A stretch of 64,000 nt of DNA from Paraglaciecola marina (GTDB lineage: Bacteria; Pseudomonadota; Gammaproteobacteria; Enterobacterales; Alteromonadaceae). Location: positions 215,078-279,077 of the forward strand of contig NZ_ML178720.1 in NCBI RefSeq assembly GCF_004360155.1, read 5' to 3'. Both the position numbers and the translations under genes were made by a program. Below are positions 40,440 through 56,933 of this stretch, piece after piece; positions within the stretch are counted from its first letter, which is position 1; every line of letters starts with the position of its first letter. Below the pieces are notes generated by a model, which was given only the letters and a program-made list of their open reading frames with translations, was not told where the DNA came from and searched no databases.

Positions 40440-41108
40440 TTACGCAACTGTAACTGGGTGAAATTGCTTTATGATCTTAATAGCGGCATTAGCAGCACCG
40501 AAGCCGTTATCAATATTTACCGTGAGTATACCCGGTGAGCATGAGGCTAAGGCGCTAGTTAATGCGGCTTGGCCACCAGCCGAAACCCCATAACCCACAG
40601 ATGTGGGTACGGCGATAACTGGCATATCTACCAATCCAGACAGCACACTGAATAACGCCCCTTCCATTCCAGCAAGGGCAATAACAATCTTATGTTGTTT
40701 GATATCGTCTAACTTCTCAATTAATCGCCATAGCCCGGCAACCCCTAGGTCTGCATAAATTGGTGCACAGTAACCATTAAACGCTAAAGTACGCTGAGCT
40801 TCTTTGGCAATAGCTAAGTCTGATGTGCCGGCAGAGACGATACATACATCTGACGACTCTTCTTTTGGCTTTACAAAGTTTAAAATGGCGGTGCGTGAGG
40901 CTTGATCGTAATCTAATTTTTCTTGAAAGGAGCTAGGCAACACTTGCCACTGCTCAGTGGTCATCCGAGTGAATAACACTGATGATTTCTGCATCATGTT
41001 GTATTCAATAATGGCAGCTAAATCTGCGTCGCTCTTACTATTACAAAAAACCGCTTCGGCAATGCCTGTTCTTGATTTTCTGTCTTTATCCCAAACGAAA
41101 CTATCCAT
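40440..41108 (-). CDS. larB: LarB, first enzyme of nickel-pincer cofactor synthesis
   Basis: About 222 residues from ATG at 41108, which has a GGAG ribosome site inside the larE 3' end (8-bp overlap). The C-terminal half is PurE-like (IVSAGTSDLAIAKEAQRTL, YADLGVAGLWRL, ALAGMEGALFSVLSGLVDMPVIAVPTS). LarB carboxylates the nicotinate ring of NaAD and releases AMP, giving pyridinium-3,5-biscarboxylate mononucleotide. A longer frame to 41174 overlaps larE by 74 bp and is less likely. Confidence 0.92.
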   Translation of the reverse strand: MDSFVWDKDRKSRTGIAEAVFCNSKSDADLAAIIEYNMMQKSSVLFTRMTTEQWQVLPSSFQEKLDYDQASRTAILNFVKPKEESSDVCIVSAGTSDLAIAKEAQRTLAFNGYCAPIYADLGVAGLWRLIEKLDDIKQHKIVIALAGMEGALFSVLSGLVDMPVIAVPTSVGYGVSAGGQAALTSALASCSPGILTVNIDNGFGAANAAIKIIKQFHPVTVA

Positions 41109-41898
41109 GGGTGACTCCATTAATAAAAGCCGAGCCTTTTTGATAGCTGCGAATACCTGAGAAAACCCTACCATCTTGGGCGCATAAAGTAGCTAGGCGA
41201 TCAGATAGCTGCTCGAGAACTTCGCTGTCTGGCATGGTGTCAATTTCTAGGTAAGTACCTTGCTGAGTGATGCGGCAACGAACGTTCTTCACCTCTGGTA
41301 AAGCTTGGCGGGTGGACTCTTCGACTTGATTAATAAAGCCTAAGTCGCCTGCATCAATTTTAATACCGGTTTCTACCCTACTGGCTAAACAGGGCTGGGC
41401 TGGCAGAGCGTGAATATCTGATAAGCCGTAAAACTTGGCAATAGCATAAATGTCTGACTTATTTATGTTTGTTGCAACATAAGGATGTTGTACGTTTTGC
41501 TCTTTTGCGGCTTCAAGGCCTGGTCTGTAATCATCTAAATCATCAAGGTTTGTCCCTGAAAAAACCATACCTTGGCTACATTCAGCGATTCTTGTGTACA
41601 GGTTGCTTTTGCAGTAATAGCAACGATTTACAGGGTTGTTAAGGTAGTTATCATCATCAAACTCTCCGGCGTTGATTACCTCTAAATCCCAACTGTAGAC
41701 CTGTGCGTAGTGCTTTACCCTTTGAAACGCAGCTTGGGGTACGGCGGGGGAAAACGCATGTACAGATTTGACCTTTGCCTTAGAAAAACGATTCGCAAGG
41801 TAGGCTAACAACATGCTATCTATTCCGCCACTTACGGCGATGGAAAAAGATTCAAATTGATCGAAATAGGTTGTGAGTTTGTCTACTTTTAGCTGCAT
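41101..41898 (-). CDS. larE: LarE, sulfur insertase of nickel-pincer cofactor synthesis
   Basis: 265 residues with the PP-loop SGGIDS at 23-28 and Cys93, Cys96 (RCYYCKSNL) and Cys170 (QPCLASR). LarE adenylates the biscarboxylate precursor and converts its carboxylates to thioacids. The three-cysteine pattern resembles the Fe-S cluster-dependent LarE described from Thermotoga rather than the Lactobacillus enzyme, which sacrifices a single cysteine. It lies between larC and larB with short spacing. Confidence 0.92.
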   Translation of the reverse strand: MQLKVDKLTTYFDQFESFSIAVSGGIDSMLLAYLANRFSKAKVKSVHAFSPAVPQAAFQRVKHYAQVYSWDLEVINAGEFDDDNYLNNPVNRCYYCKSNLYTRIAECSQGMVFSGTNLDDLDDYRPGLEAAKEQNVQHPYVATNINKSDIYAIAKFYGLSDIHALPAQPCLASRVETGIKIDAGDLGFINQVEESTRQALPEVKNVRCRITQQGTYLEIDTMPDSEVLEQLSDRLATLCAQDGRVFSGIRSYQKGSAFINGVTHG

Positions 41899-41917
41899 TA
41901 ATTTTACTACCTCTAAT

Positions 41918-43192
41918 CTAAGACAATTCTGTCTTGTATTTATGCATGCGCCGCTCGTGCAAACTAGCTAAAGAGATCAACTCATCATGTTCAATTTTTT
42001 TGGTATCGGTTTGATTAGGACGACTCACACGTTTAAATGACTGCCCTGCATCGCTCACTAGCTCACGCTTTAGCATAGCTCTGGTTTCAAAACGATAACG
42101 TAAACCTATGGTTGTGGTTTGAATAAAACAATAATCGATAACATCTTGATAATGCTTGCAATTTGCCATTATTCTTAGAGACTCCATGGCGCGATTTTTT
42201 TTGCCTCTCACTGTGTGTACCACTACATCAATTACCCCTTGATGCTTTCGAAGTAAATCGACAGATAGTCCTAGCTCTTCACCTGTCATATCGTCAACAT
42301 CAAACTCAATGACTACTAGTGTGTCTTGTTCTTTATTATCACTGTGACAATCGAATGCCAAGCCTCTTAAAATATTCGGCATACCCGGGAAGACTTTGCT
42401 ACCTAGCCCATAACCCGTTGCTTGCAGACTTCCTTGGGGTTTTACAGTTAAGACTTTTTTATCTGATAAATAACGCAAAATAGCAGCTCCAGTTGGCGTT
42501 ATTCGTTCCCCTTGAATAGCATCGTCAAAAAACTCAAAATCTATCAATATTTCTGCGGTTGCTGGGGCAGGCACAGGGATTAACCCATGTTGCGTATTCA
42601 CCAAACCGCCCCCTAATGGCAGTTTAGAAGTACTCCAAGTACAGGTTGCTAGGGCATCTAATATTACTGCACTAGCGACGACATCCATCAAGGAGTCCCA
42701 GTCTGCCAGTTCATGAAAGTGAACCTCGTCTAAGGATTTAGCATGTATTTTTGCCTCTGCTTTGGCAATGATAGTCAGTAAATCGATGGCTACTTGTATG
42801 ACTTCTTTACTTAACCCACTGTTTTTTAGTAATTCACATAAGTAAATATAAGTGGTGTGTTTATGTCCGTGAAAAGCATCTGACGCTTGGTGGTGGCTAT
42901 AGTGATGATCGTGATGATGCCCAGCATCATGGTCGTGAGAATGGGTATGCTCTTTAGCATCACTTGAAGCGCTAACTTGCTGCGCCTGCAGTCTAAAGCG
43001 TTTACCGCTAATGCCAGAATTTACTCCCTCAAACAGCTCAGCTTGCCCAGCTTCATCGGGCAATACAGAGGCTACCGACGCTAGCACTGGCGGTATTAAA
43101 TCATCAAACATATCTAACATGGCCGATATAAACATATCACCGGCAATGCCACCTACTATATCTAGATGAATATGTGCGTTTTCAGTCTTCAT
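41918..43192 (-). CDS. larC: LarC, nickel insertase of pincer cofactor synthesis
   Basis: 424 residues, beginning HIHLDIVGGIAGDMFISAMLD, with HFHELADWDSLMDVVASAVILDAL and the C-terminal TTIGLRYRFETRAMLKRE. LarC installs Ni in a CTP-dependent step, completing the NPN cofactor. Residues 82-112 form a histidine-rich loop (HTHSHDHDAGHHHDHHYSHH) suited to nickel storage. Unlike Lactobacillus, where larC1 and larC2 are joined by frameshifting, this is one uninterrupted gene. Confidence 0.93.
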   Translation of the reverse strand: MKTENAHIHLDIVGGIAGDMFISAMLDMFDDLIPPVLASVASVLPDEAGQAELFEGVNSGISGKRFRLQAQQVSASSDAKEHTHSHDHDAGHHHDHHYSHHQASDAFHGHKHTTYIYLCELLKNSGLSKEVIQVAIDLLTIIAKAEAKIHAKSLDEVHFHELADWDSLMDVVASAVILDALATCTWSTSKLPLGGGLVNTQHGLIPVPAPATAEILIDFEFFDDAIQGERITPTGAAILRYLSDKKVLTVKPQGSLQATGYGLGSKVFPGMPNILRGLAFDCHSDNKEQDTLVVIEFDVDDMTGEELGLSVDLLRKHQGVIDVVVHTVRGKKNRAMESLRIMANCKHYQDVIDYCFIQTTTIGLRYRFETRAMLKRELVSDAGQSFKRVSRPNQTDTKKIEHDELISLASLHERRMHKYKTELS

Positions 43193-43239
43193 AGGTATGA
43201 ATTAGCCTTTAATTAGCAAAATAAAATAGCAGTAACACA

Positions 43240-44526
43240 CTAGCTATTAAAGGTTTCTTCTGTTGCCCACAAACCTAAAGCAGGATTGCTAACATAGAAA
43301 ACTTCTTCGCCATCATCTAAGGTATTCCAGCCATTTTTGAGATTTTCGATTGGGTAACGCTTTACCATTTCATCATAATGACAGTATTGATAATTAACCG
43401 ACTCTACCTCTTGTTGCGTTAACCCATCACCTGGGCAATACGTCACTTTAAAACGGTTGTTGGTGGTACCGTGAATTAAATGGGCTGCAGCAGACAAGTT
43501 ACTGGCAAGTTCGGGATTTTGCTGCACGGCTTCTAGGGTTTCATCTGTGGTTTTGTAACCATAAGTTCTTATTAGCTTATCTATCGCTAAGTCTTCACCA
43601 AAACGATGTAAAGCTGGTGCTAATACGATTAACTCGCCGTCATCGGCCATGGCCATACGAGTACGGTAAATAGCCTTGTTACCTAACCAGGTGGTTTTAA
43701 ACTCCGCAGGCTCTAAAAATACGATAGCTTTTTTAATAGGTTTAGATAGCAGGTTTAAGTTTAGTTTTTGACTAAGCTCACAAGCGGCTTCATAGGTTTC
43801 ATTTTGGTTACCACAATACACACCTTGCAGCGCTAACTTGTCATCATTTTTACCCAATACAGTTAAAATAAACTCAATGGGTAAGTGCCGTAAAAATGTA
43901 TCAAAGCCTTCGTTTAAGGCTTTTCTTACTGGGGTAGAGGTGCGCCCCATAATTCGTTCCATACCATACACAGCACCCAAATAATGGGACTTATGGATAG
44001 TGTCTTGGCCACCTACACCCACTAAAATATTTTTAGTGTAGTTAGCCATTCCAATCACTTCATGGGGGACAATTTGCCCTACAGATATAATCAAATCCCA
44101 GGTACCGTCTAGTAATAATTTGTTTACCGCCACTTCCATGGTGCAATCTAACTTACCTTCAGACAATTCGCCTATACGCTCCTTTGAGATCTCCCCAAGC
44201 ACTTCTACGTCTGTGCGCCAAAAGTGGGGTAAAAATCTGTCTTTGGGAATATCTGCGCCAAACATGCTGTCAATTTCGCCGTTCGACATAGGTTCGTGAG
44301 TGCCAAGAGCCGGCAAAAAGAAAATCTCTGCTTGGTCTTTTAATTGTTCATAAAGGTAACTTGAGATAAATCCAGCTTTTGAATAAAAACGCGTAATATC
44401 TGGGGGTAAAATTAGAATTTTTTTAGCATCACTAGCTTTTTGAGCAATAAAATTATCAATAATCTGCCTTAAATCATCGTCAGAAATTGTTTGCTCTGTA
44501 TCAACATGGTGAATTGGGTAGCTCAT
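43240..44526 (-). CDS. LarA-superfamily nickel-pincer hydroxyacid racemase/epimerase
   Basis: 428 residues of the lactate-racemase superfamily. Comparison by spacing with Lactobacillus LarA gives Asp43/Arg46 (PPDITRF), His77 (LGTHEP), His155 (VPHEV), cofactor-binding Lys165 (YTKN, ten residues after His155 as His174/Lys184) and nickel ligand His181 (16 after the lysine, as His200). It therefore looks catalytically competent. Sequence is otherwise divergent, and its start overlaps the stop of the gluconokinase gene. I infer an aldonate C2-epimerase (gluconate/mannonate) rather than lactate racemase; members acting on gluconate are reported in this superfamily. Confidence 0.85.
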   Translation of the reverse strand: MSYPIHHVDTEQTISDDDLRQIIDNFIAQKASDAKKILILPPDITRFYSKAGFISSYLYEQLKDQAEIFFLPALGTHEPMSNGEIDSMFGADIPKDRFLPHFWRTDVEVLGEISKERIGELSEGKLDCTMEVAVNKLLLDGTWDLIISVGQIVPHEVIGMANYTKNILVGVGGQDTIHKSHYLGAVYGMERIMGRTSTPVRKALNEGFDTFLRHLPIEFILTVLGKNDDKLALQGVYCGNQNETYEAACELSQKLNLNLLSKPIKKAIVFLEPAEFKTTWLGNKAIYRTRMAMADDGELIVLAPALHRFGEDLAIDKLIRTYGYKTTDETLEAVQQNPELASNLSAAAHLIHGTTNNRFKVTYCPGDGLTQQEVESVNYQYCHYDEMVKRYPIENLKNGWNTLDDGEEVFYVSNPALGLWATEETFNS

Positions 44527-45008
44527 TTTTGTACTGCCTTTAAAATTTGCGAAATAATCTCATCAACTGTGTTTTTCAATAACACGGTAATAGCATCTTG
44601 TGGTGGCTCTAAGGTATTCAATTGACTATCTAATAAGGATTCAGGCATGAAGTGGTTATCTCTTCTTTTCATGCGAGCAGTTAAGGTAGCCTTATCACCT
44701 TTCAAATAAACAAAGCGCACTGTGTTTTCTGTAGTTGATGACAAAATATCACGGTAGCTTTGCTTTAACGCAGAACAAGCTAACACCGCGCCACCAGCAG
44801 ACTCCCAATCGACAATATTATTAGCAAGTAAGCTTAACCAGGGTTTACGATCATCATCTGTAAGAGGGGTGCCGCTCGCCATTTTGGCAACACTCTCTGG
44901 AAAGTGAAAATCATCAGCATCATAAAATGGTAAAGACAGTTGCTCAGCCAACTCTTTTCCTATGGTTGATTTTCCACAACCACTTACACCCATCACAATA
45001 TAAATCAT
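44523..45008 (-). CDS. gntK: Gluconokinase
   Basis: 161 residues, full length for the GntK/IdnK family. P-loop MGVSGCGKSTIG, DADDFHFPESVAKMASGTPLTDDDRKPWL and ACSALKQSYRD are all diagnostic. It phosphorylates D-gluconate to 6-phosphogluconate for the Entner-Doudoroff or pentose-phosphate pathway. The 4-bp overlap with the LarA-type gene ties the epimerase to gluconate. No gluconate permease is adjacent. Confidence 0.95.
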   Translation of the reverse strand: MIYIVMGVSGCGKSTIGKELAEQLSLPFYDADDFHFPESVAKMASGTPLTDDDRKPWLSLLANNIVDWESAGGAVLACSALKQSYRDILSSTTENTVRFVYLKGDKATLTARMKRRDNHFMPESLLDSQLNTLEPPQDAITVLLKNTVDEIISQILKAVQK

Positions 45009-45118
45009 AAAAAAACTCTATACACCTAAAATCAAATCGAAATATAACTAGCTAAAGGGATACCTAATAATACTCCGATTTATGTCTATTATCTCAAATC
45101 GTTAATACTCTCTTTTTC

Positions 45119-45150
45119 AAAAAAGAGACTCTAGGAGCCTTTCCCAGAGT
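45119..45150 (-). terminator. Possible terminator between the Gfo/Nramp operon and gntK-lar operon
   Basis: On the minus strand ACTCTGGG and CCTAGAGT pair with one mismatch (45150-45128), followed by CTCTTTTTTG. It lies about 118 bp after the oxidoreductase stop and 110 bp before gntK, suggesting that gntK-lar has its own promoter. Confidence 0.5.
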
Positions 45151-45267
45151 TTCACAGTAAAAGGAACATGTTACTCAGATATTAAAGTGCTAAATGCCAA
45201 AGAAATACTGCCAAGAACAGTTGCAGTATAACTACTCACTATTTGAAATTATGTAAAAACATATTAT

Positions 45268-46365
45268 TTATGAATTCTCGTCAGCAACTTTTTGTGCTTT
45301 TAAACTTAACTCAGCAGCTTTAAACACATGCTCTTGAGTCATTGCGTAATCAGTCCGATTCATAACATCCAAAATTAAATGGCCAAAGTACGGAAAGGTA
45401 CTCTCTCCTAAACAGTCGATTTCTATTTCTTCTATTTTATTAGTTAAGAATACCTTTGAGGCTGGGGCTAATCGCGCAACGTCGTTATATTTACGGCATT
45501 CAATATTGCCTTCTGTTCCCATAATAAACGTTCTACCATCCCCCCAGGTAGCTTGCCCATCAGGTGTAAACCAATCAACTCGAGAATAAAAAGAGGTACC
45601 ATTTTTGCCAATCAATGACATTTCTCCAAAGTCTTCTAATCCAACCTTATCTGGGTTATTTAAGTTTGCCACCCTAGCAAAGTTAACCCTAGCGTCTGTC
45701 TCTCCACTGTAAGTCAAAAACTGCTCAACTTGGTGGGACCCTATGTCAGTTAAAATTCCACCATAACTGTTTTTATCAAAAAACCAATCTGGTCGTGTTG
45801 GTTTGGCAAGCCGGTGAGGGGCCAAGTTGATAACCTGTAATACTTTTCCTATTTTACCTTGGCTTATTAACTCTCCAGCCATCCAAGCTGCTTCGTTATG
45901 CAATCTTTCTGCGTAGTAAACTGCATATATTTGGTTAGTCGACTGCACCACTTTCTTAACTTTTTCTAGTTGTTCTAAGGTGGTGAACGGAGATTTATCG
46001 GTAAAGTAATCTTTTCCAGAAGCCATGACTTGAATACCAATATCTGCCCGCAAATTAGGTATCGCGGCACTTACTACAATCTTGGTATCTGAATCATCGA
46101 TTATATTAGAGAAGCTTTCTACGACTGTGACTTGAGGGTACTTAGCGCAAAATACCTCTCGCTTAGCTAAGTCTGGTTCAAACACATATTTTAAGGTAGC
46201 ACCAGCTTGCAATAACCCATTGGTTTGCCCGTAAATATGTCCATGGTCTAAAAAAGCAACAGAAAATATACATTCATTGGGCTTGACCACCTGCTGAGCT
46301 TTACCCATAGGGGCATAGTTTGCACCATCTTTAATGTTTACTGAGGTGTTAGCTTGTCCTTTCAT
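45268..46365 (-). CDS. Gfo/Idh/MocA-family oxidoreductase (atypical N-terminus)
   Basis: 365 residues. The Gfo/Idh/MocA fold is visible in KDYFTDKSPFTTLEQLEKV (the equivalent of the usual EKP motif region), GILTDIGSHQVEQFL and GTEGNIECR. The usual GxGxxG nucleotide loop is replaced by VAFLDHGHIYGQ, so cofactor use may differ from classical members. It is third in the operon Gfo-transporter-Gfo, 3 bp after the transporter gene, and probably acts on a sugar or sugar acid. Confidence 0.8.
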   Translation of the reverse strand: MKGQANTSVNIKDGANYAPMGKAQQVVKPNECIFSVAFLDHGHIYGQTNGLLQAGATLKYVFEPDLAKREVFCAKYPQVTVVESFSNIIDDSDTKIVVSAAIPNLRADIGIQVMASGKDYFTDKSPFTTLEQLEKVKKVVQSTNQIYAVYYAERLHNEAAWMAGELISQGKIGKVLQVINLAPHRLAKPTRPDWFFDKNSYGGILTDIGSHQVEQFLTYSGETDARVNFARVANLNNPDKVGLEDFGEMSLIGKNGTSFYSRVDWFTPDGQATWGDGRTFIMGTEGNIECRKYNDVARLAPASKVFLTNKIEEIEIDCLGESTFPYFGHLILDVMNRTDYAMTQEHVFKAAELSLKAQKVADENS

Positions 46366-46368
46366 TAT

Positions 46369-47769
46369 TTACCCCATTTGAATATAAGCTGAGTACACTA
46401 CACTACTCAATACAGTTAAAATGCACAGTGCCATAGCAGCATTAAAGGCATATCGATTTATACCCGTTGGCATAGCTGTTCCCATATATTCTTTATTGTT
46501 ATGCAAAATAGCCCAGCCAATGTAAGCGATTGGCAGTAAAAAACCACATATCGCAGAGGTAGGCAGTACGACATACGCACCCATAGAAGCCCAAACAAAA
46601 ACGCCTAGTACAGCTGGAGTTGGAGCCAGTAATGCTAACTTGTATTTTAAGCTACCTTCACTCCACTTAAACATTGCAGCGGCTGCAGAGCCACAACACA
46701 ACATATGCATAACTAAAGATCCTACAGCCATACCTAAAATACCGAACGCAAAAATTAAGCGACTAGTGACTTCATCTAAACCAGCTGACATAAACATTTT
46801 TCCAGCCTGTGTGGGGCTCAACTTCCCCTGAATATCCATCTCAGAGCCAAAAAAAGCTCCTGCAGCAGCGATACTTATTAAGCTAGTCACAAGAATGTAA
46901 GGCAGCACTAACCCCATACCTATATCATAACGAGATAACTCAACATGACTAGGACCCCACCTTTTGTGTAATAAGGTAAAGCCATAAATAAAGGTCATAT
47001 TAATTCCCACTGCGCTACCTAGTGCAGCCATCATGGTGGTTACACCTTCTGTCGTGTTTGGCAAGGAACTCGGAATATAGCCAGCTAACACCGCTGCCCA
47101 TGCAATTTTCCCTTCGAGTGAAGCACTAATCACAACCCAAGCAAATGCGAGGATAATTAAGCCACTTAACCATTTAATACCTGTTTCAAATATCACTACG
47201 GCATTAACCTTAGAGTTAGCTTTGTTGCTTACTTGATTACCGTATTGCCAAGCGGTATAGGCGCAAAATGCCCATATTCCTATAGCCAAAACTAAAAGAT
47301 ATATATTTCGTGATAGGCTAGCGCTGTCTCCCATAGAAAATCCGGTAGATACCACTATTATCTCTTCTACCATTGCTGCGCTCAGAGGGTAATGGGCAAA
47401 TCCCCAAATGATGCTAGATAAAAATGCAGCTATTGCCCACGCCCAAGCCAATGGCGCATTAACATATCGCTTCATAGATTCAAAAGGAGAGCATTGGCTG
47501 TTTAAAGTTTGATGGGATAAAGCAAATAACATAATGCAACCAATTAACATGGATATAGGCTGCACCCACAAAAATTCATAACCAAACAAGGCACCTATTG
47601 TAAGCGATGTTACCGCACTTCCTCCGCCTAGGGTCATGGCCCCTTGTAACCAGCCAGGGCCACTTAATGCTAAGTATTTTGGCAGTCGCTTATACCAAGG
47701 CTGTAACGCTAAATTCTTTAAGTATACTATTTGGAGATTTATCTTTTCGTCATCGATTTCTGAGCTCAT
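46369..47769 (-). CDS. Nramp-fold transporter lacking the metal-binding motifs
   Basis: 466 residues, about 11-12 membrane helices. The first helix begins like Nramp (LSGPGWLQGAMTLGGGSA, 36-52) but the metal-binding DPGN is replaced by TLGGGS. The sixth-helix MPH motif is also absent (AVGINMTFIYGFTLLHKR, 253-270). The protein thus belongs to the Nramp superfamily but probably does not carry divalent metals in the usual way. It sits between two sugar-type oxidoreductase genes (4-bp overlap upstream, 3-bp gap downstream), which suggests an organic substrate. Confidence 0.75.
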   Translation of the reverse strand: MSSEIDDEKINLQIVYLKNLALQPWYKRLPKYLALSGPGWLQGAMTLGGGSAVTSLTIGALFGYEFLWVQPISMLIGCIMLFALSHQTLNSQCSPFESMKRYVNAPLAWAWAIAAFLSSIIWGFAHYPLSAAMVEEIIVVSTGFSMGDSASLSRNIYLLVLAIGIWAFCAYTAWQYGNQVSNKANSKVNAVVIFETGIKWLSGLIILAFAWVVISASLEGKIAWAAVLAGYIPSSLPNTTEGVTTMMAALGSAVGINMTFIYGFTLLHKRWGPSHVELSRYDIGMGLVLPYILVTSLISIAAAGAFFGSEMDIQGKLSPTQAGKMFMSAGLDEVTSRLIFAFGILGMAVGSLVMHMLCCGSAAAAMFKWSEGSLKYKLALLAPTPAVLGVFVWASMGAYVVLPTSAICGFLLPIAYIGWAILHNNKEYMGTAMPTGINRYAFNAAMALCILTVLSSVVYSAYIQMG

Positions 47770-48911
47770 CTGTATGACTTCTCCATATCTATGTTGGCTT
47801 TAATGTCAGATTTTTCACGTAACTTGGATTGCTTGATGTTTTCATTTAATGCAGCCTGATAACCAACCATATCAATAGGAAAAGTAACCTTTTCATCAGT
47901 CCATGATGACCACAATATTCCGTTTGCTATTGCTAATGAATCGAGACCTTGTTCAGCAGGAGCAATCAATGACTCTTTCCCCAAAATAGCGTTAACAAAG
48001 TTATTAATAAGTTCTCCGTGCTGATTAACTTCTTCGGTGGGAGTGATGTTAGTGGTTTCAGTAACTGGCTGACCAAACATATCAACAGTGTCTTTACTAA
48101 ATTGACTGGTTGCGGGGGTATTTTTAGTGAGAAACAAATGCTGTCCGTTGTAACTAAGCATGCCCTTATCACCCACTATATCTAGTTGGTTCACTCCCGG
48201 AGCTTCACCTGTTGAGCCAACGAAAATACCGGTAGCGCCATTCTTATACTGAAAAAACGCCGAAGCTTCATCCTCTACCTCAATATCATGATATTTCCCA
48301 AAACCACAAAAGCCTGTCACCGATTTTGGCATTCCACATAACCATTGGAAAATATCTATGTTGTGAATACATTGATTAACTAATAAACCGCCCCCTTCGC
48401 CTTTCCATGTAGCCCGCCAATCAGACACTTGAAAATACACTTCAGGCCTAAACCAATTTGTCATGGTCCACTGAGTGCGCTGCAATGCTCCTAATGCCCC
48501 ATCGTCAATGAGCTTTTTCATTTTGGTAAATATCGGATCAACCCTTTGATTTAGCATTAATCCGAATTGTTGTTTTTCACTAGCTGTATCAATGAGAGTC
48601 TGCCCATCCTTAACACTTAAGGCGATGGGTTTTTCCATAAGAACATGCAAGCCCTTCTCTAACGCATATAGGCCCATTTCAAGGTGATTCATTGTTGGAC
48701 TGGCAATCAAAACTCCATCACATAAACCAGAATCAATAAGAGCATGGTAATCTGTAAAATGTTTAGCACCAATTTCAGTGGCAATCTCATTTGGAGCCCT
48801 TGAGGACACAGCAGTTATTGTGCAATTGTTAACCACGTCACTTTGTATATGTTTAATATGCTGTTGGCCAATATTACCAAGGCCAATCACTCCTAATTTA
48901 ACATCACTCAT
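47766..48911 (-). CDS. Gfo/Idh/MocA-family oxidoreductase
   Basis: 381 residues with a classical N-terminal Rossmann loop (LGVIGLGNIGQQH, 6-18), the EKPIALS catalytic-lysine motif near 95, and a C-terminal domain with GGGLLVNQCIHNIDIFQWLCG. Such enzymes oxidise or reduce sugars and inositols with NAD(P). It is the first gene of the operon and diverges from the TonB receptor across an 18-bp operator-like palindrome. Substrate unknown. Confidence 0.88.
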   Translation of the reverse strand: MSDVKLGVIGLGNIGQQHIKHIQSDVVNNCTITAVSSRAPNEIATEIGAKHFTDYHALIDSGLCDGVLIASPTMNHLEMGLYALEKGLHVLMEKPIALSVKDGQTLIDTASEKQQFGLMLNQRVDPIFTKMKKLIDDGALGALQRTQWTMTNWFRPEVYFQVSDWRATWKGEGGGLLVNQCIHNIDIFQWLCGMPKSVTGFCGFGKYHDIEVEDEASAFFQYKNGATGIFVGSTGEAPGVNQLDIVGDKGMLSYNGQHLFLTKNTPATSQFSKDTVDMFGQPVTETTNITPTEEVNQHGELINNFVNAILGKESLIAPAEQGLDSLAIANGILWSSWTDEKVTFPIDMVGYQAALNENIKQSKLREKSDIKANIDMEKSYR

Positions 48912-49132: not shown

Positions 49133-49150
49133 ATTGACACCGGTGTCAAT
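49133..49150. promoter_or_regulatory. 18-bp palindromic operator between Gfo operon and TonB receptor gene
   Basis: ATTGACACCGGTGTCAAT is a perfect palindrome of LacI-family type with a central CG. Its TTGACA can act as a -35 box for the plus strand (17 bp to TAGCAT), so a bound repressor would block transcription. The same 16-bp core occurs upstream of uxaC. The surrounding 313-bp spacer (48912-49224) holds nothing else I recognise; no regulator gene is in the window. Confidence 0.75.
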
Positions 49151-49224
49151 CAACATTAGCATTATCGTAAAATAAATTCATTTAAAATGATGCTTAGTTG
49201 TTAAATGTTTGCTAGTAAACAGGC

Positions 49225-51234
49225 ATGTTCATTATCATAACGTCATTAAGCTATCCATTAGGAGTGCCAACATTGCTATTAATCCGACGCAGTATTAGTT
49301 TTTTGTTAATTTCAGACCACTCACATCGATATTTAAATGTTAACAAAGTAAAAACAAGGGGCATTATCTACCTACTGAGTTTCTGGCTATTGGCTAGTTC
49401 TGAAGTAGCATATTCCCAACAAGACGTTGAAGTATTTCAAATAACTGGCTCTCACTTTTCTAAAAAAGAACTATCTACACCAATTCCTGCTGTAAGCTTA
49501 ACCGCAAGTGAAATAGAGGCACTCAGTGCAATTAGCTTTGCAGATGTTTTAAAGGGACTACCGGGAGTGGATATTAATCAACAAGGGGGAGAAAGTGGGC
49601 TAACTTTTTTGTCCATTCGTGGAGGCGATCCAAATTTTGTCACTATCTTGATTGATGGTGTGAAAGTAAATGACCCGACCAATAGCCGTGGCGGCGCATT
49701 TGACTTAGGGACCATAGACCCCAATATGATTGAGAAAGTAGAGCTGTACTACGGTAGTTATTCTAGTGTTTTTGGATCAGATGCGTTAGCAGGCGTTATT
49801 AGCATTACGACAAAAACACCTAAAGATGGTGAACTAGGTAGTATCAGCCTTAGGTACGGAGAGGGTGGTACATTAGGTGCAAACATCAATTTAGGTGTAC
49901 CTATAAGCTCGTTTGCTAATGGTAATTTAAGTGCGTCATTTCAAAATGGAGACAATAGCACTTTCTCTGATTCATTTTCTCGTAAACAGGTAATCGGGTC
50001 CATTACCTCTAATGGCAACACAGATTCACAATGGGAGCTAGGAGGGTTCTTTGCTCAAGGAAAAGGTGAGTATTTTCCAGAAGATAGCGGCGGAGACAGA
50101 CTGGCAATTATCCGCACCCCAGAACGCAGAGATTACAGTCAAAGTAATCTAAGTGCGAAGTTCAAACATTCTGTCACTAATAAACTTGATTTAACCGTTA
50201 CAACTGCCTATTCAAAGCGTAAAGAGAGCATTATTAATCCAGGTATTAGTGATGGCGTGTTAGATGGTGTTCCGCCTATTGAAAGTCAAACTGATTATCA
50301 CAACATAGACAGTTTGGTTAAATTCACCTACCCGCTATCTGATTATATTCATAGTACTTTTGGAGTCGCCTACACTCACGAAGAAGGCGAAATGGACAGT
50401 ATTATTGATTTTGGAATTTTAATAGATGCCGACTATGGGTTGAACCGCAGCACTCGTTCAGGATTTGGTGAAATATCCATATCAAATCAAGCCTGGTATA
50501 ACTTACTAGCCGGTATTCGATATGACAACTCTGGAAACCTTAGCGTGTCTACGCATCGTATTATTGGAAATGTGGATTTAACTGACAGCCTTATTTTACA
50601 CGGTCAATTCAGTGAGGGATTTAAACTACCCAGTTTCTATGCACTTGGACACCCTTTAGTGGGAAATAAAGACCTAAAGCCTGAGCAAAGCCAAAATGTA
50701 GAGCTTGGAGCTCACGTATTAACATTGGATAAAAGGCTATCTACCCGCTTAAACTTTTATCAGAATAAATATTTAGATTTAGTAGACTTCGATCCAGTTA
50801 ATTTTACCAATGTAAATCGCTCGACTATAAAGGTTAAAGGAGTTGAACTGAGCAGCTCTTACACCCCTACTCAAAAATGGCAGTTGGATGCACAAGTAAG
50901 TTTTAATGACGTTAATACATATGATGACACTGTAATCTTGCGCAGAAGACCTGAATTCAAAGGCAGTATTAGAGTAACCCACCATTATAGTGAACCACTA
51001 AACTTCACTTTTAGGTATAGAGTTAATGATGATTACTTTGACAGCTCTGTTCCTACTGGTTTTGTAAAACTGAACGGACGTAATCAAGTAGACTTTTCAG
51101 CTCAGTGGGAAACCCAATCTGACACATCTTGGAAAATATACATCAATAATATTTTCGACAATGACAAAGAAGAGGTTATTGGGTTTCATAATATAGGGCG
51201 TGATATTAACGTAAGCCTAACAATAAAAGTGTAA
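49225..51234 (+). CDS. TonB-dependent outer-membrane receptor
   Basis: 669 residues. A plug domain (about 70-200) contains SFADVLKGLPGVDINQQGG, LSIRGGDPNFVTILIDGVKVND and IEKVELYYGSYSSVFGSDALAGVISI. A beta-barrel follows with the usual terminal aromatic-poor strand SLTIKV. The size and plug resemble BtuB/CirA-type receptors more than large SusC-type ones. The signal peptide is near residues 42-64 (GIIYLLSFWLLASSEVAYS), so the true start may be downstream of 49225 at a non-ATG codon. It likely imports the substrate of the neighbouring genes. Confidence 0.88.
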   Translation: MFIIITSLSYPLGVPTLLLIRRSISFLLISDHSHRYLNVNKVKTRGIIYLLSFWLLASSEVAYSQQDVEVFQITGSHFSKKELSTPIPAVSLTASEIEALSAISFADVLKGLPGVDINQQGGESGLTFLSIRGGDPNFVTILIDGVKVNDPTNSRGGAFDLGTIDPNMIEKVELYYGSYSSVFGSDALAGVISITTKTPKDGELGSISLRYGEGGTLGANINLGVPISSFANGNLSASFQNGDNSTFSDSFSRKQVIGSITSNGNTDSQWELGGFFAQGKGEYFPEDSGGDRLAIIRTPERRDYSQSNLSAKFKHSVTNKLDLTVTTAYSKRKESIINPGISDGVLDGVPPIESQTDYHNIDSLVKFTYPLSDYIHSTFGVAYTHEEGEMDSIIDFGILIDADYGLNRSTRSGFGEISISNQAWYNLLAGIRYDNSGNLSVSTHRIIGNVDLTDSLILHGQFSEGFKLPSFYALGHPLVGNKDLKPEQSQNVELGAHVLTLDKRLSTRLNFYQNKYLDLVDFDPVNFTNVNRSTIKVKGVELSSSYTPTQKWQLDAQVSFNDVNTYDDTVILRRRPEFKGSIRVTHHYSEPLNFTFRYRVNDDYFDSSVPTGFVKLNGRNQVDFSAQWETQSDTSWKIYINNIFDNDKEEVIGFHNIGRDINVSLTIKV

Positions 51235-51238
51235 AAAA

Positions 51239-51262
51239 AAGCGAACACATAGGTGTTCGCTT
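51239..51262. terminator. Bidirectional terminator between TonB receptor and cytochrome genes
   Basis: AAGCGAACAC and GTGTTCGCTT form a perfect 10-bp stem with a 4-base loop. The minus-strand copy is followed by eight T residues, the plus-strand copy by a T-rich stretch. It lies between two convergent genes. Confidence 0.85.
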
Positions 51263-51315
51263 ATTCTTAAAATACATATTTGGATGCTCATCAGAAAAGC
51301 ACCTACTGATATTGC

Positions 51316-53649
51316 CTATTGAAAGTCTTTCTCAGTAAAAGGCATCTGTCTTGATTGAGTGTTTTCTCGCATTTGTTTAACGAAACCAGCTTCTATAACA
51401 CTCGACTGATTACCCCAGTTATTACGAATATATGTCGCAACATCAGCTAACTGTTGATCATCTAAATTACGGGCCAAACCAGGCATTACCATAGGCAAAT
51501 TGTACTGCTTGCCACTAACAGTAATGGGCCCCATTAATCCATGTAATAGCACTTTAACCAGTCGCTCTGGAGATTTCTCTACCCATTCGCTGTTCACTAA
51601 TTGTGGTCCCATGCCATCTATACCCTCGCCGTTTTTTCCATGACACCCAAAGCACGCAGCGCTTGTTTCAAATAATTGTTTACCACGGTTATAACTTTGC
51701 TGAGCATTACCACTTAAGTTAAGTATATTGGTTTTTTCTACCTTTACTTCACCCACTGAATCTAGCATTGCGAGAAATTCACTACTGGCATGTCCATTAA
51801 TTAAACCTTTAAAAGTTTTTTCTTTGCCAGTTAGTCCACTGATCGCTGCTTCTCGGATCCAAGGCTCATGCTCGTAGGTTTCAATCACAGTCTTGAGTGC
51901 CAGTAAAGCATCCGGATGTTCTATTTCACCTGCCACTAGAGCAATATGTAAAGCAGTTTCATAATCCTTAGGGGCTAGGTTAAGCAATTGCTTTGCAATC
52001 TTTGAATGCTCCCTCGATGGGAGTCGAGTGCTCAATTCAATTGCAGCGGTCACTACTTTAGAATGGGGATCCTTAAGCGCAGCTAAGATGATATCGCCAG
52101 TTAAAGCTTGCAAACCCTCTAATGCCCACAAAGCATTAATGCGCCCTCTGTGATCATTGCTTTTTGTCGCTATTTTAATTAGCTCTTCAGTAAACCCATA
52201 CTGTTCATTTTGTACTATTAATTGTCTAGCGATATCTCTAAACCAACCATTAGAAGCATCAATATGTGCAATCCAGCTTGATGGCCCTTGATGCAACAAA
52301 GAAGGCTTTTTACTTAAAGCGTTATCTGCCCAACGTAGACGATAGATTCGCCCCATACTAGAATTGTGCTTATCGAGTTCACGGGCCTCAGATTGCTCCC
52401 TTAAGTAGGTTGTCAAAAATTCTTTATGTTGGATAACCCCATGATACATATCAACTATATATAACGAACCATCGGGTGCTGTATACAAGTTTACTGGTCT
52501 GAAGCGCTCATCAGTGGAGGCAACAATTTCTGATTTTGGATATATTTCCCTACCAGATAACTTGCCTTTTTCTTCGATAATATCTCGGACAGTGATTAGA
52601 TTCCCTGCGGGTTCTGGAGTAAAAGAAACACCATAAAACTGTTTGGGAAATTGCTCTCCCCTGTAAACAGTATTACCGCTAGCAGCTGTAAAATTCTTTA
52701 ACTTACCCTTGTTTTCTCCCTCGCTTACAAGTGTGCTGGGTAAATAGGCGCGATTAACACCGGGGTTAATTCTAGCGGGATAAACTCGAGTTGAACCTAT
52801 GTTATTAGCCTTTACAGAACGTTGAAAACCAGGGTTTTTCATCAATGACCCTGGCAATAAAAATTCTCCTTGCGCTGGTGAACTATTACCATTGTGAAAT
52901 AACCGTCCATAGTCATCCATACTCAAACCCCATTGACCACGTCTGTCAGTTACTGCACGCACCATTTTCCAATACTGATTTCGGTAGACCTCTTCTGCAT
53001 TGCTAGGAACTTCTGCAGTTAAAGGTAGTGTTTTATACTTCTTATCGCTTTTGGCGTTGTAATACCAGTTATCAAGAGAGTACATCATGGCATTAGGCTT
53101 ATGTTCGACACTTCCGCCTTGGGCATAGGTTTCATCTACAACTTCACGAATGCCTAAAGTGTCATTTTCAAGTACTTCGGCAAAATACAATTTATTGATA
53201 TCAGCATATAAAATGCCGCCCTTAACTAGCGAAATACTTCTAGGCAAAATTACATCACTTAAAAATACTGTGCGTTTGTCAATTTTTCCATCACCATCTG
53301 TGTCATCCAGAATCACGATATTGCCTTCAGGAACTTCTTCATTGTTCCCGTCTAGGTCTGGCATGAATGTAATCATCTCAGCTACCCAAATACGGCCATT
53401 ACCATCAAATGTAATAGCAACAGGGCTTTGTACTAAAGGTTCAGATGCCACGTTTTCAAGGACAAATCCTTTTTGCACTTGCATTGAAGCTAAAGCCTCT
53501 GCAACAGATAGAATTGGGGCAGGTGGGATAGCATCTTCGGCAATTGGAGGCGTCATGTCATGGCCCTCACGATCCCCCTTGTTGACAGATGTTTGTGCCA
53601 CTGCATTAGTTATAAATACAACACATATTAAGAAACTACGAATTAACAT
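51316..53649 (-). CDS. Periplasmic PVC-type dehydrogenase with c-type haem
   Basis: About 777 residues from ATG at 53649, with a GGAG ribosome site; residues 1-19 are a signal peptide (ending NAVA). The N-terminal half is a beta-propeller of the putative membrane-bound dehydrogenase type (VAITFDGNGRIWVAEM, NIVILDDTDGDGKID, LYIVDMYHGVIQHKEF). A HEAT-like helical region follows (about 460-640), then a C-terminal cytochrome c with AACFGCHGKNGEG and a likely Met ligand in MVMPGLARNL. It should oxidise a sugar or polyol in the periplasm and pass electrons to the respiratory chain. Confidence 0.82.
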   Translation of the reverse strand: MLIRSFLICVVFITNAVAQTSVNKGDREGHDMTPPIAEDAIPPAPILSVAEALASMQVQKGFVLENVASEPLVQSPVAITFDGNGRIWVAEMITFMPDLDGNNEEVPEGNIVILDDTDGDGKIDKRTVFLSDVILPRSISLVKGGILYADINKLYFAEVLENDTLGIREVVDETYAQGGSVEHKPNAMMYSLDNWYYNAKSDKKYKTLPLTAEVPSNAEEVYRNQYWKMVRAVTDRRGQWGLSMDDYGRLFHNGNSSPAQGEFLLPGSLMKNPGFQRSVKANNIGSTRVYPARINPGVNRAYLPSTLVSEGENKGKLKNFTAASGNTVYRGEQFPKQFYGVSFTPEPAGNLITVRDIIEEKGKLSGREIYPKSEIVASTDERFRPVNLYTAPDGSLYIVDMYHGVIQHKEFLTTYLREQSEARELDKHNSSMGRIYRLRWADNALSKKPSLLHQGPSSWIAHIDASNGWFRDIARQLIVQNEQYGFTEELIKIATKSNDHRGRINALWALEGLQALTGDIILAALKDPHSKVVTAAIELSTRLPSREHSKIAKQLLNLAPKDYETALHIALVAGEIEHPDALLALKTVIETYEHEPWIREAAISGLTGKEKTFKGLINGHASSEFLAMLDSVGEVKVEKTNILNLSGNAQQSYNRGKQLFETSAACFGCHGKNGEGIDGMGPQLVNSEWVEKSPERLVKVLLHGLMGPITVSGKQYNLPMVMPGLARNLDDQQLADVATYIRNNWGNQSSVIEAGFVKQMRENTQSRQMPFTEKDFQ

Positions 53650-53982
53650 ACATTTACTCCAACTCTCGGGACCTTGAATTTCTAAACCTGACAATATAGT
53701 TTTGCCAGCTTTTCTCAGCTTTTTACTACCATGCTTTTGAAACCCAATACGCCCTTTCGTGTTAGTTGTATCAATAACATGTGCAGTGAAAATTACACTT
53801 TTTTGGTAGTGATATTACGCCCCATTAGTAAGCTCAATATCACCAGGTTAAATGGCCATCAAATATCAATCGGCAAGATGACGTCACCCTAATACACTTT
53901 CTAAATGAAAGTGATAAACCATTTGATAATCTAATTTAATTGCTCTAACTCTAATACGAACTGAGCTCAAAAAAAGACTGAC

Positions 53983-55488
53983 TCAATCTGTAGTGGCATT
54001 AATATTTTCAAGTAACTCCTGCAACGCCGCTTTCATACCAAGCTTTTGAATTATGCCTAACCAATCACACAACTTTTCTTTAAATGCTGGATAACTCTGC
54101 AGACTTTCAGGAAAAATACTATGCACACTTAAATAGGCATCAATAAGCTCATCAAGGTTATTGGCATGTTGTTTGTAAATACTCGCAAGTTGCTCTGCCC
54201 GAGGATCTTGCACTTCAATTGCAACACCGTTTTCATTAACCCCCGTTGTGTACCTAAGCCACCCTGCGATTGCAAAACTCAAAGCATCGATTGCTTGGTT
54301 GTTTTTTAGCTTATATTCCACCGTATGCAACAAACGCTGTGGCACTTTTTGTGAGCCATCCATAGCAATTTGATACGTGCGGTGGTGTAACTCTGGATTA
54401 GAAAATCGTTGTAATAAGTCATCACAATATTTTTGTAAATCTAACCCTTCGGGAGCCACAATAGTGGGGGCAATTTCAACCTTCATTAGATGGGTTAAAA
54501 AGCGGGTTAATTCTGGATTTTCCTTGACTTGATGTACGAAGTCTAAGCCTGTTAGGTAACCTACATACGCTAAAGAAGAATGGGCACCATTTAATAAACG
54601 CAGTTTTGCATTTTCATAGGCATCTACATCCTTAACAATATTGACCCCAACTTTTTGCCACGCTGGGAGCTTACCTACAAAGTTATCTTCAATAACCCAC
54701 TGGCTGAAACGTTCTGTTTTTACCATGGCTAAATCATGGTACCCATATCGTTGGGAAAACATGTCAATATCATCAGCGGTTGTGGCAGGTACTATGCGAT
54801 CTATCATAGTATTTGGGAACTTAACTTGTGCCTTTATCCAATCAGTTAATGCAGGCTCTATGCTCCCAGCAAACTGTAATACTACTTTGGCGAGGGTTTT
54901 ACCATTACTCGGTAAATTATCACAACTTAAAACAGTGAAGGCAGGCAAAGCGTGGTCGCGCCTAAACTTAAGAGCTGACACAATAAAACCAATAGCAGTT
55001 TTAGGTGAGTCTAGATTAACTAAATCATGCTGAATATCTGGGTTTTGTAGGTCAAGATCTCCACTTACCACATCATGACAATAGCCTTTTTCAGTTACCG
55101 TTAACGACACAATTTGTGTAGTTTCTGCGGCCATTACATCTAATACCGCTTGTGGACTTTCTGGAGCAACCAGTACATCTTCAATAGCACTTACCAAGAA
55201 GCGGTTGCTGCCACTGGCATCGCTTTCGATAACATTATAAAAACAGTTTTGTGGTACGAGTTGATCACGAACAGTTGCACTACGCAGCGACACCCCAACA
55301 ATTGACCAAATATCCTCTGCAGCTTTAGCAGCCAATCCATTCACATTATTTGTATAAACAGCCTGATGGGCGCGGTGAAAAGCGCCAATTCCTAGGTGTA
55401 CAATTTTTGCTGAAGCTTTTGGAGTTCGCTGTGATTCATCGCTATGTGTATTCGCAACAATTGCATTGTTAAGTCGCTTAAATTGCAT
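53983..55488 (-). CDS. uxuB: D-mannonate oxidoreductase (fructuronate reductase)
   Basis: 501 residues of the polyol-dehydrogenase family, following E. coli UxuB over its whole length: VHLGIGAFHRAHQAVYTN, IVSLTVTEKGYCHD, MIDRIVPATT, QWVIEDNF and the catalytic-lysine region KLRLLNGAHSSLAYVGYL. It reduces D-fructuronate to D-mannonate with NADH. It follows uxaC by 29 bp. No mannonate dehydratase gene is next to it. A closely related mannitol or tagaturonate enzyme is a less likely alternative. Confidence 0.9.
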   Translation of the reverse strand: MQFKRLNNAIVANTHSDESQRTPKASAKIVHLGIGAFHRAHQAVYTNNVNGLAAKAAEDIWSIVGVSLRSATVRDQLVPQNCFYNVIESDASGSNRFLVSAIEDVLVAPESPQAVLDVMAAETTQIVSLTVTEKGYCHDVVSGDLDLQNPDIQHDLVNLDSPKTAIGFIVSALKFRRDHALPAFTVLSCDNLPSNGKTLAKVVLQFAGSIEPALTDWIKAQVKFPNTMIDRIVPATTADDIDMFSQRYGYHDLAMVKTERFSQWVIEDNFVGKLPAWQKVGVNIVKDVDAYENAKLRLLNGAHSSLAYVGYLTGLDFVHQVKENPELTRFLTHLMKVEIAPTIVAPEGLDLQKYCDDLLQRFSNPELHHRTYQIAMDGSQKVPQRLLHTVEYKLKNNQAIDALSFAIAGWLRYTTGVNENGVAIEVQDPRAEQLASIYKQHANNLDELIDAYLSVHSIFPESLQSYPAFKEKLCDWLGIIQKLGMKAALQELLENINATTD

Positions 55489-55517
55489 TCTTGATAACCA
55501 TATAATAAGAGTAAGAG

Positions 55518-56933
55518 TTAAAGCTTATAAGCTGATTTAGCCAAGTTGTAGGTTAAATCAACCGCAAGCTCTTCGGCCTCGTATTCATCGATTTGATGTT
55601 TTACAACGAGTTCAGCTAAGTATGCACAGTCCATTCTGCGAGCAAGATCATGGCGGGCAGGAATCGACAAAAATGCACGAGTATCATCATTAAAACCAAC
55701 GGTATTATAAAAACCTGCAACCTCGGTCGTCGCCTTTCTATAACGACTCATACCCTCTGGGCTGTCATGAAACCACCAAGGTGGTCCTAGCTTTAAACAA
55801 CGATAATGGCCAGCTAATGGGCCTAGCTCCCTACTGTATACTGTTTCATCCAAAGTAAATAAAATAATATTTAGTCGACTATCGTTGCCGTATTTATCCA
55901 GTAGAGGTTTTAAAGCATCCACATATTCGGTAGCTTTCGGCAAATCAGCTCCTTTATCTCGACCAAACTCTAAGAATAACTGTTGATTATGATTTCGATA
56001 ACATCCAGGATGAATCTGCATTACTAAACCATCTTCAATAGACATTTCTGCCATTTTAGTCAGCATATGCGCTCTGAATAATTCAGCGTCATCGGCTAGA
56101 ACAGGCCCATTAATCAACTTTTCAAACAGGGCTTTGGCTTTTGAGTCGCTTAAAACTGCTGTATTTGCCGTAGGATGTCCATGGTCTGTTGCAGTAGCTC
56201 CCATTTTTTTGAAATATGCCCGTCTCAGTTTTAATGCCTTAATATATTCGGGGTAATGCAAACAATCTAACCCAGTTACCTCACTTAACTTTTTAAGCTT
56301 TGGTAGAAAAGATTCGTGCTCCGCATCAATTACACTATCAGGCCTAAATGAGGTAATCACTCTGCCATCCCAGTCAGAGTCCAATATCTTTTGATGGTAT
56401 TTTAACGAATCAGTTGGGCATTCGGTGGTTGCCAGTACCTCGATATTATATTTATCGAACAAGGCTCGGGGTAAAAAAGCACTAGTTGCTAATTTATCGC
56501 TTATGGTGTTGTAATAAAAATCTGCCGTTTTTGCATTTAGCTTTACACTAATTCCGAAGGTATTTACAAATACGAAGTTCAGCCAATAGTACGAGGGCGT
56601 ACCTCTGAAAAGGTGAAAATGTTCGGCAAAAATTTTCCAGACTTGCTGAGGCTCAACGTGTGAAGCAAAGTTGCTGCAACCTTTAATACCAAGTGTATCT
56701 AGAGTAACTCCCTGACTATAAAGCATTCGATAAACGTAATGATCAGGTTGCACTAAAAGTTCACTAGGGTTTGAGAATGGTAGGTTTTCAGAAAACCATC
56801 TAGGATCTGTATGCCCATGGGGGCTCAAAATGGGCAAATTAGCAATTTGATCGTACAAGTTTCGCGCAATATTACGCTCTGCTAGATTAGCTGAAAAAAA
56901 AGTGTCTGGGTGCAGAACTAAAGGCCTTGTCAT
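55518..56933 (-). CDS. uxaC: Glucuronate/uronate isomerase
   Basis: 471 residues, standard for UxaC, an amidohydrolase-fold isomerase. SPHGHTDPRWF at about 37-47 carries the metal-binding HxH, and VMQIHPGCYRNHN, ARHDLARRMD and FNDDTRAFLSIPARHD are typical. It converts D-glucuronate to D-fructuronate (and galacturonate to tagaturonate). It is first in the uxaC-uxuB operon, and the shared operator-like palindrome lies 86 bp upstream of its start. Confidence 0.95.
   Translation of the reverse strand: MTRPLVLHPDTFFSANLAERNIARNLYDQIANLPILSPHGHTDPRWFSENLPFSNPSELLVQPDHYVYRMLYSQGVTLDTLGIKGCSNFASHVEPQQVWKIFAEHFHLFRGTPSYYWLNFVFVNTFGISVKLNAKTADFYYNTISDKLATSAFLPRALFDKYNIEVLATTECPTDSLKYHQKILDSDWDGRVITSFRPDSVIDAEHESFLPKLKKLSEVTGLDCLHYPEYIKALKLRRAYFKKMGATATDHGHPTANTAVLSDSKAKALFEKLINGPVLADDAELFRAHMLTKMAEMSIEDGLVMQIHPGCYRNHNQQLFLEFGRDKGADLPKATEYVDALKPLLDKYGNDSRLNIILFTLDETVYSRELGPLAGHYRCLKLGPPWWFHDSPEGMSRYRKATTEVAGFYNTVGFNDDTRAFLSIPARHDLARRMDCAYLAELVVKHQIDEYEAEELAVDLTYNLAKSAYKL

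Follow-up and report, generated by a model that had tools for sequence, protein, structure and literature searches.

We analysed a 64,000-nucleotide stretch of the Paraglaciecola marina genome (assembly GCF_004360155.1, contig NZ_ML178720.1, positions 215,078 to 279,077; hereafter the window), in which a homologue of the nickel-dependent racemase LarA overlaps the gluconokinase gene gntK. Our data make it probable that this homologue, a member of sequence group 18 (LarA18), is a mannonate 2-epimerase that feeds gluconate to 6-phosphogluconate via GntK. An original prediction on this DNA had proposed the same reaction and the same partnership with GntK, and the family, residues and fold of the protein, its neighbourhoods and the regulon of relatives speak in favour of it. 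The argument draws on gene content, conservation, neighbourhoods and operator motifs in relatives, from which we infer substrate, direction and physiological weight.

In the proposed route, UxaC and UxuB would make D-mannonate from hexuronates, and the LarA homologue, as a nickel-pincer-nucleotide (NPN) dependent 2-epimerase, would convert it to D-gluconate. The product of the overlapping gntK would then phosphorylate gluconate to 6-phosphogluconate, which would enter the Entner-Doudoroff or the pentose-phosphate route, while LarB, LarE and LarC from the same operon would supply the NPN cofactor. In the source genome, this epimerase branch would stand beside, or in place of, the mannonate dehydratase step. 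The genes concerned are the following:

40440 to 41174, minus strand: larB, NPN synthesis (NF033503, 256 bits, cut-off 175)
41101 to 41898, minus strand: larE, sulfur transferase for NPN (TIGR00268, 227 bits, cut-off 150)
41918 to 43192, minus strand: larC, nickel insertion for NPN (TIGR00299 and NF052512, above cut-off)
43240 to 44526, minus strand: larA homologue, NPN group 18 putative hexonate epimerase, predicted D-mannonate/D-gluconate 2-epimerase (NF052594, 622 bits, cut-off 500)
44523 to 45008, minus strand: gntK, gluconokinase, overlapping larA by 4 bp (TIGR01313, 173.8 bits, cut-off 113.75)
53983 to 55488, minus strand: uxuB-like gene, predicted fructuronate reductase, fructuronate to mannonate (best NF011611, 430 bits, below cut-off 603; PF01232, PF08125)
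55518 to 56933, minus strand: uxaC, glucuronate isomerase (NF002794, 554 bits, cut-off 387)

The five genes from larB to gntK form a single minus-strand run, with larC, larE and larB directly behind larA and all three above curated cut-offs, exactly as predicted. The listed open reading frame of larB overlaps larE, and its real start probably lies later. The predicted uxaC and uxuB are likewise present, the latter as a member of the mannitol-dehydrogenase family, and the 9.0 kb from gntK to uxuB agree with the anticipated spacing of about 9 kb.

Family, residues and fold of the LarA homologue

By fold and residues, the larA homologue is a member of the LarA superfamily of NPN-dependent racemases and epimerases, and it is a member of group 18, as it lies above the curated cut-off of NF052594, which NCBI names “nickel-dependent putative hexonate epimerase”. 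Group 18 is its best family model; no group-19 or group-20 model is among the matches. The closest PDB entry by sequence is 4NAR, the GntE2 protein of Thermotoga maritima (115 bits vs 34 for lactate racemase). The same entry is the best fold match of the AlphaFold model (pLDDT 91.8) with a TM-score of 0.80 and E 9e-28 (runner-up E 3e-17), at 22% identity over the structural alignment. The 19 PDB entries that the model matches at E<=0.001 all belong to LarA, malate racemase or LarA-like proteins, or are 4NAR itself.

Residue equivalences were mapped by hand via sequence alignments and the residue numbers in PMC7583248. The NPN-binding and catalytic residues D72, R75, H108, H174, K184, H200 and K298 of LarA correspond to D43, R46, H77, H155, K165, H181 and K284 of the window protein. 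Among group-18 proteins D43 is conserved in 80 of 81 and the other six in 81 of 81. The specificity positions are similarly constant, with E156, V157 and W280 in 81/81 and N343 in 78/81; of these, E156, W280 and N343 are GntE2-like.

Gene neighbourhoods of group-18 relatives

To place the enzyme in context, we used the best 80 of 458 confirmed relatives, comprising 19 gammaproteobacterial loci (16 assemblies by title) and 61 others. Neighbours were scored within the fetched flanks with hidden Markov models built from the 80 loci, using bit-score thresholds set by hand. In the gammaproteobacterial loci, gntK is present in all 19 and always next to larA, accompanied by uxuB in nine, uxaC in eight and gnd, encoding 6-phosphogluconate dehydrogenase, in five. 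Four of the 19 have uxuB directly upstream of gntK-larA. By a rough estimate, the probability that a locus has uxaC within 10 kb by chance is 0.009. The other 61 loci carry a PfkB kinase (22), gnd (19), a short-chain dehydrogenase/reductase (SDR; 11), uxaC (5), uxuB (3, two of them weak) and gntK (1), which brings gnd to the flanks of 24 of the 80 loci. A uronate gene occurs at once with gntK or gnd in 11/19 gammaproteobacterial and 14/61 other loci.

Scans of six of the 11 non-gammaproteobacterial SDRs placed every one of them above the cut-off for D-mannonate oxidoreductase; three gammaproteobacterial SDR matches (L018, L026, L028), two of which we judged to be KduD, were not counted as mannonate SDRs. 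A further recurring neighbour, cluster c14, is the tagaturonate epimerase UxaE, found in seven of the 80 loci (five gammaproteobacterial, one Bacteroidales, one Ignavibacteria) and confirmed by Pfam in all seven. The gene order is LacI, gntK-larA-larC-larE-larB-c11-uxaE-gnd in L022 and LacI, gntK-larA-larE-uxaE-gnd in L029, and L070 combines uxaC, uxaE, an eda-type gene, a mannonate SDR, PfkB, larA, gnd and kduI in one run. In L087, an FGGY kinase whose best match is gluconokinase (230 bits, below the cut-off of 649) lies between a mannonate SDR and larA-gnd. Three unrelated kinase types, GntK, PfkB and FGGY, occupy the equivalent place. The PfkB gene lies no more than 100 bp upstream of larA in 16 of the 22 non-gammaproteobacterial PfkB loci, often with gnd downstream (e.g. 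L062:8881-9960, L070:8870-9949), and possibly encodes a PfkB-type gluconokinase. Because of these neighbours in relatives, one flank of LarA18 appears to make mannonate, while the other would phosphorylate and oxidise gluconate.

Two further features of these loci may be mentioned. A conserved gene of about 210 codons (cluster c11) directly follows larB in ten gammaproteobacterial loci (L013, L014, L017, L018, L021-L025, L027), and its protein had no match in NCBIfam for the L013 and L014 copies, or in Pfam for the L014 copy. The uxuB-gntK-larA run of P. algarum follows a gene of the 3-keto-disaccharide hydrolase family (L012:7089-9432).

Operators and regulation

The lar-gntK run and uxuB/uxaC are separated by genes for two Gfo/Idh proteins, one NRAMP-like membrane protein, one TonB receptor and one PVC-type heme protein, listed here with the regulatory elements of the region:

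45126 to 45150, minus strand: predicted intrinsic terminator between the gfo operon and gntK-lar (9-pair stem and T run)
45268 to 46365, minus strand: Gfo/Idh/MocA oxidoreductase (PF22725, PF01408)
46369 to 47769, minus strand: NRAMP-like membrane protein, candidate transporter (NF037982, 21.8 bits, below cut-off 50)
47766 to 48911, minus strand: Gfo/Idh/MocA oxidoreductase (PF01408, PF02894, PF22725)
49134 to 49149, no strand: LacI-type operator TTGACACCGGTGTCAA between gfo and tonB, perfect palindrome
49225 to 51234, plus strand: TonB-dependent receptor (PF00593, PF07715)
51316 to 53694, minus strand: PVC-type heme-binding DUF7133 and cytochrome c protein (PF23500, PF00034; TIGR02604, 181.7 bits, cut-off 122.2)
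57019 to 57034, no strand: LacI-type operator TTGACACCGGTGTCAA upstream of uxaC, perfect palindrome

The operator that was predicted to be shared is real: the window holds four sites at <=3 mismatches compared with a mean of 0.19 in 100 shuffles, and the two perfect copies link the uxaC operon to gfo/tonB. It does not extend to gntK-lar. Control of gntK-lar by the window operator was rejected, since the gntK promoter has no TTGACACCGGTGTCAA-type site at <=4 mismatches and the predicted terminator lies ahead of it (two overlapping sites vs 0.2 expected, a consensus match only). Outside the window, at L114:15424, a third perfect copy separates a LacI gene from the TonB gene ahead of a second uxaC of the source genome; this uxaC is 57% identical to the first and accompanied by genes of a tripartite ATP-independent periplasmic (TRAP) transporter. 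The region (L114:1776-16653), which begins 1.8 kb past the right-hand end of the window, also contains GH92, Gfo, 3-keto-disaccharide hydrolase and N-acylglucosamine 2-epimerase-family genes.

In the window genome no operator is common to uxaC and gntK-lar; in three relatives these two units do share one, and in one relative uxuB and gntK-lar do. The exact core of the window operator had no match in the relatives' loci then examined, and a related motif surfaced in mismatch scans. All six gammaproteobacterial loci with LacI beside gntK (L014, L017, L022, L024, L029, L038) have the core TGCYACCGGTGGC of this LacI motif in the LacI-gntK interval. In L022, and in L119 and L120 from the genomes of L014 and L017, similar sites precede uxaC by about 60 to 120 nt; in L024 one precedes uxuB by 34 nt. 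At <=3 mismatches, TTGCCACCGGTGGCAA gave 24 sites in 377 kb, compared with 0.4 on average over 10 mononucleotide shuffles. The operator of the window genome is related to, but different from, that of the relatives, and serves uxaC-uxuB, gfo/tonB, and the LacI gene and TonB gene by the second uxaC.

Mannonate dehydratase and KDG kinase in the source genome

According to the original prediction, uxuA and kdgK are missing. Neither is found in the window, and a search for UxuA (PF03786) gave no match in the whole source genome (4.64 Mb, 75 contigs, 100% complete). Run on 14 control genomes, the same search was positive in five, E. coli and T. maritima among them. For kdgK the claim does not carry beyond the window: the PfkB family has three genome matches (contigs C1, C18 and C5), none within the window, and the one on C18 is KdgK-like (297 bits, below the cut-off of 400), so that genome-wide absence of kdgK had to be rejected. 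The KdgK-like gene sits in a polysaccharide-lyase cluster with a chondroitinase-B-family lyase, a TonB receptor, a major facilitator superfamily transporter and gnd. We take PF14592 to be the family covering alginate lyases of PL6, and read the cluster as serving alginate use. The genes edd, eda and gnd are all found in the source genome.

The enolase superfamily (PF13378) has five genome matches, four of them above cut-off and the fifth, below cut-off, being L005. One of the four scores above the cut-offs of both the mannonate dehydratase ManD (671 bits vs 550) and the broader family of D-galactonate dehydratase (656 bits vs 430). With regard to a dehydratase-free pathway, UxuA is thus absent from the source genome, yet a divergent ManD-family gene lies above the ManD cut-off. 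Aligned with eight ManDs from relatives, the protein falls into a divergent subgroup, with 79% and 76% identity to two members and about 55% to the other six, and it shows changes around conserved motifs. Around its gene the order is LacI-ManD-Gfo-sodium symporter, and no window-type operator occurs there at <=3 mismatches. A ManD-Gfo-symporter order recurs in this subgroup (L092:12491-17785, L117, L118). L092 and L118 also have a divergent LacI gene, and the Gfo and symporter assignments in L117 and L118 are made from size and order only. The substrate of the divergent subgroup may be other than mannonate. The six other ManDs include a uxaC-TRAP-ManD order in L122, TRAP-ManD in L119 and L123, and a ManD gene that adjoins lar, convergent to larB, in L116 (P. 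algarum); L121 shows none of these. In L119 and L120, ManD and uxaC lie on one contig piece, about 6 kb and about 10 kb apart, respectively.

The original prediction had named a normal uxuA-kdgK set elsewhere in the genome as contrary evidence. No such set is found as worded, with uxuA absent and the KdgK-like gene below cut-off, but a dehydratase route may still exist. Replacement of the mannonate dehydratase/KDG (2-keto-3-deoxygluconate) kinase route, which had also been proposed, is accordingly only partly supported, and our data do not establish the bypass as the only route that this organism has.

Co-occurrence across genomes

An order-wide scan found LarA18 above cut-off in one of 247 genomes, the window's own, and we used a family sample of 295 genomes of at least 90% completeness instead, in which LarA18 occurs in 16, UxaC in 83 and UxuA in 47. 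UxaC is present in 16/16 genomes with LarA18 compared with 67/279 without (Fisher p=5e-10, relatedness not corrected). LarA18 thus co-occurs with uxaC, and with gntK in the 19 gammaproteobacterial loci. The gene uxuA is missing in 13/16 LarA18 genomes vs 42/67 uxaC-positive genomes without LarA18 (Fisher p=0.24), and therefore replacement is not shown by the co-occurrence test. Taking the absence of uxuA alone as a sign of a LarA bypass was rejected on the same 42 genomes. Within the genus, uxuA occurs in one of five LarA18 genomes and in four of five other uxaC-positive genomes, too few to weigh.

Among 50 LarA18 genomes chosen from the 80 loci, many of them metagenome-assembled genomes (MAGs) and with completeness not given, UxaC is found in 48, UxuA above cut-off in 14 and ManD above cut-off in eight, without overlap. 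Neither dehydratase is above cut-off in 28 of the 50, and 27 of these have UxaC. Catenovulum maritimum Q1 and C. agarivorans DS-2 are two examples of strains with both UxuA and ManD below cut-off. As a tentative and rather doubtful extension, hexuronate catabolism may be obligately nickel-dependent in many bacteria of several phyla, in which UxuA and ManD would be gone and all mannonate would pass via group-18 LarA to gluconate and 6-phosphogluconate, with a gluconokinase drawn from three unrelated kinase families, including an undescribed PfkB type directly upstream of LarA.

Weighing the alternatives

Several observations weigh against the epimerase route as we propose it. In the window, gntK-lar has no copy of the operator in its promoter and lies 9 kb from uxaC-uxuB and behind a predicted terminator, and the ManD-family and KdgK-like genes offer a dehydratase route in the same genome. 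The window UxuB and three other UxuB-like proteins scanned score below the fructuronate-reductase cut-off. The gammaproteobacterial LarAs form one clade, and therefore the counts from these loci are not independent. No LacI was scored in 13 of the 19, and the motif is in front of gntK in none of these 13; it is likewise missing from L122, one uxaC region in the genome of L029 (which has a second uxaC elsewhere), and P. algarum has sites upstream of GH28-uxaC genes (L125) and none at gntK. Outside the gammaproteobacteria, 30/61 loci have none of the scored neighbours, many being cut by contig ends, and larB, larC and larE were detected beside LarA18 in 0/61, scoring only in gammaproteobacterial loci. 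Finally, the PfkB neighbours, of which L062, L070, L091 and one of two L032 copies were scanned with NCBIfam, look most like KDG kinases, and a KDG kinase is also the closest solved structure to the single neighbour compared with the PDB.

The main mechanistic rival is a kinase-first order, in which GntK, or a PfkB or FGGY kinase, makes 6-phosphomannonate and LarA18 epimerises this to 6-phosphogluconate. Such activities are described for extracts of Lactobacillus suebicus, with the epimerase gene unidentified (PMC6978723), and the constant adjacency of gntK to larA in gammaproteobacteria and the frequency of gnd in the flanks would fit this order as well. However, the proven GntE relatives act on free D-mannonate (PMC7583248), the specificity positions of LarA18 resemble those of GntE2, and E. 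coli GntK is reported to be unable to use mannonate (cited in PMC6978723), which leaves the kinase-first order quite improbable. We give about the same low weight to the idea that the substrates of LarA18 are a different hexonate pair (altronate, galactonate or gulonate/idonate), its link to gluconokinase being incidental. The 2020 paper goes no further than hypothesising hexonate epimerisation for group 18 (PMC7583248), and pectin genes (GH28, KduI/KduD) are nearby in some relatives; against this, two unrelated mannonate-forming enzymes, UxuB and the SDR, recur beside LarA18 together with UxaE, and the opposite side holds gluconokinase and 6-phosphogluconate dehydrogenase.

A more serious contender, though still unlikely, is that the ManD-family protein dehydrates mannonate to KDG, followed by KdgK and Eda, and that LarA18 is a minor side branch in this organism. 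A ManD-family gene, a KdgK-like gene below its cut-off, edd and eda are in the genome, and most ManDs of relatives lie near uxaC, TRAP or lar genes (L122, L119, L123, L120, L116; not L121). This reading is weakened by the source-genome ManD itself, with its divergent sequence, altered motif surroundings, distinct context free of the window-type operator and match to the D-galactonate dehydratase family, by the placement of the KdgK-like gene among polysaccharide lyases, and by the 28 LarA18 genomes above in which both dehydratases fall short. Epimerisation of free mannonate by LarA18, followed by GntK, is therefore the reading that we prefer.

Relation to known systems

The route is not new in kind. 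Rodionova proposed in 2012 that T. maritima leads mannonate via gluconate to 6-phosphogluconate (cited after PMC6978723 and PMC7953866), and D-mannonate/D-gluconate epimerisation was shown for GntE1, GntE2 and LarAH15 (PMC7583248, PMC11770544), the GntE activity in 2020, when members of groups 19 and 20 were found active (PMC7583248). What we add is a putative group-18 branch with neighbourhood support from several phyla, for which we propose a specific substrate and pathway. In open-licence literature we found nothing joining nickel-pincer with glucuronate, or lactate racemase with mannonate dehydratase and glucuronate.

T. maritima GntE2 (LarAH20) shares the LarA fold and catalytic residues with the window protein, feeds 6-phosphogluconate, and is encoded beside fructuronate-reductase and gntK genes; UxaE co-occurs in LarA18 relatives. 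In contrast, the window protein belongs to group 18 and not 20, gammaproteobacteria have the lar cofactor genes in the operon, and T. maritima has uxuA (our control search; PMC3750489), which the source genome lacks. GntE1 of C. glutamicum (LarAH19) and Phytophthora LarAH15 are likewise NPN-dependent D-mannonate/D-gluconate 2-epimerases (PMC7583248, PMC11770544), but GntE1 is of another sequence group and has a KM of 120 mM for mannonate, and its true substrate was doubted by its authors. The galacturonate pathway of L. suebicus similarly runs through a uronate isomerase and joins 6-phosphogluconate at the mannonate level, with UxuA, KdgK and KdgA not detected in its proteome, and differs in its kinase-first order and the phosphoketolase route at its end (PMC6978723). 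The canonical pathway via UxuA or ManD, KdgK and Eda has the first steps, UxaC and UxuB, in common, but dehydrates mannonate to KDG instead of epimerising it.

If the pathway operates as proposed, marine and gut bacteria would draw on a nickel cofactor to break down glucuronate and pectin. Should LarA18 be the only exit for mannonate where UxuA and ManD are missing, uronate use would be nickel-dependent there, and could yield pentose phosphate and NADPH instead of KDG products.

Additional observations

The Gfo/Idh and NRAMP-like pair flanks the lar operon in the window (45268-48911), and in a Lentisphaerales MAG a homologous pair (L031:2034-4805) borders a cluster of UxaC-SDR-GntK-PfkB-LarA18. 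The NRAMP-like protein had no Pfam match at E<=0.001 and no PDB match by sequence at E<=1, and its cargo may be an organic substrate rather than a metal. The DUF7133/cytochrome c protein (51316-53694), of PVC type, adjoins uxuB here in a gammaproteobacterium. Elsewhere in the window (31768-37019), an AAA ATPase and subtilase gene pair lies beside a HipA-like gene, perhaps as a small defence or mobile cluster.

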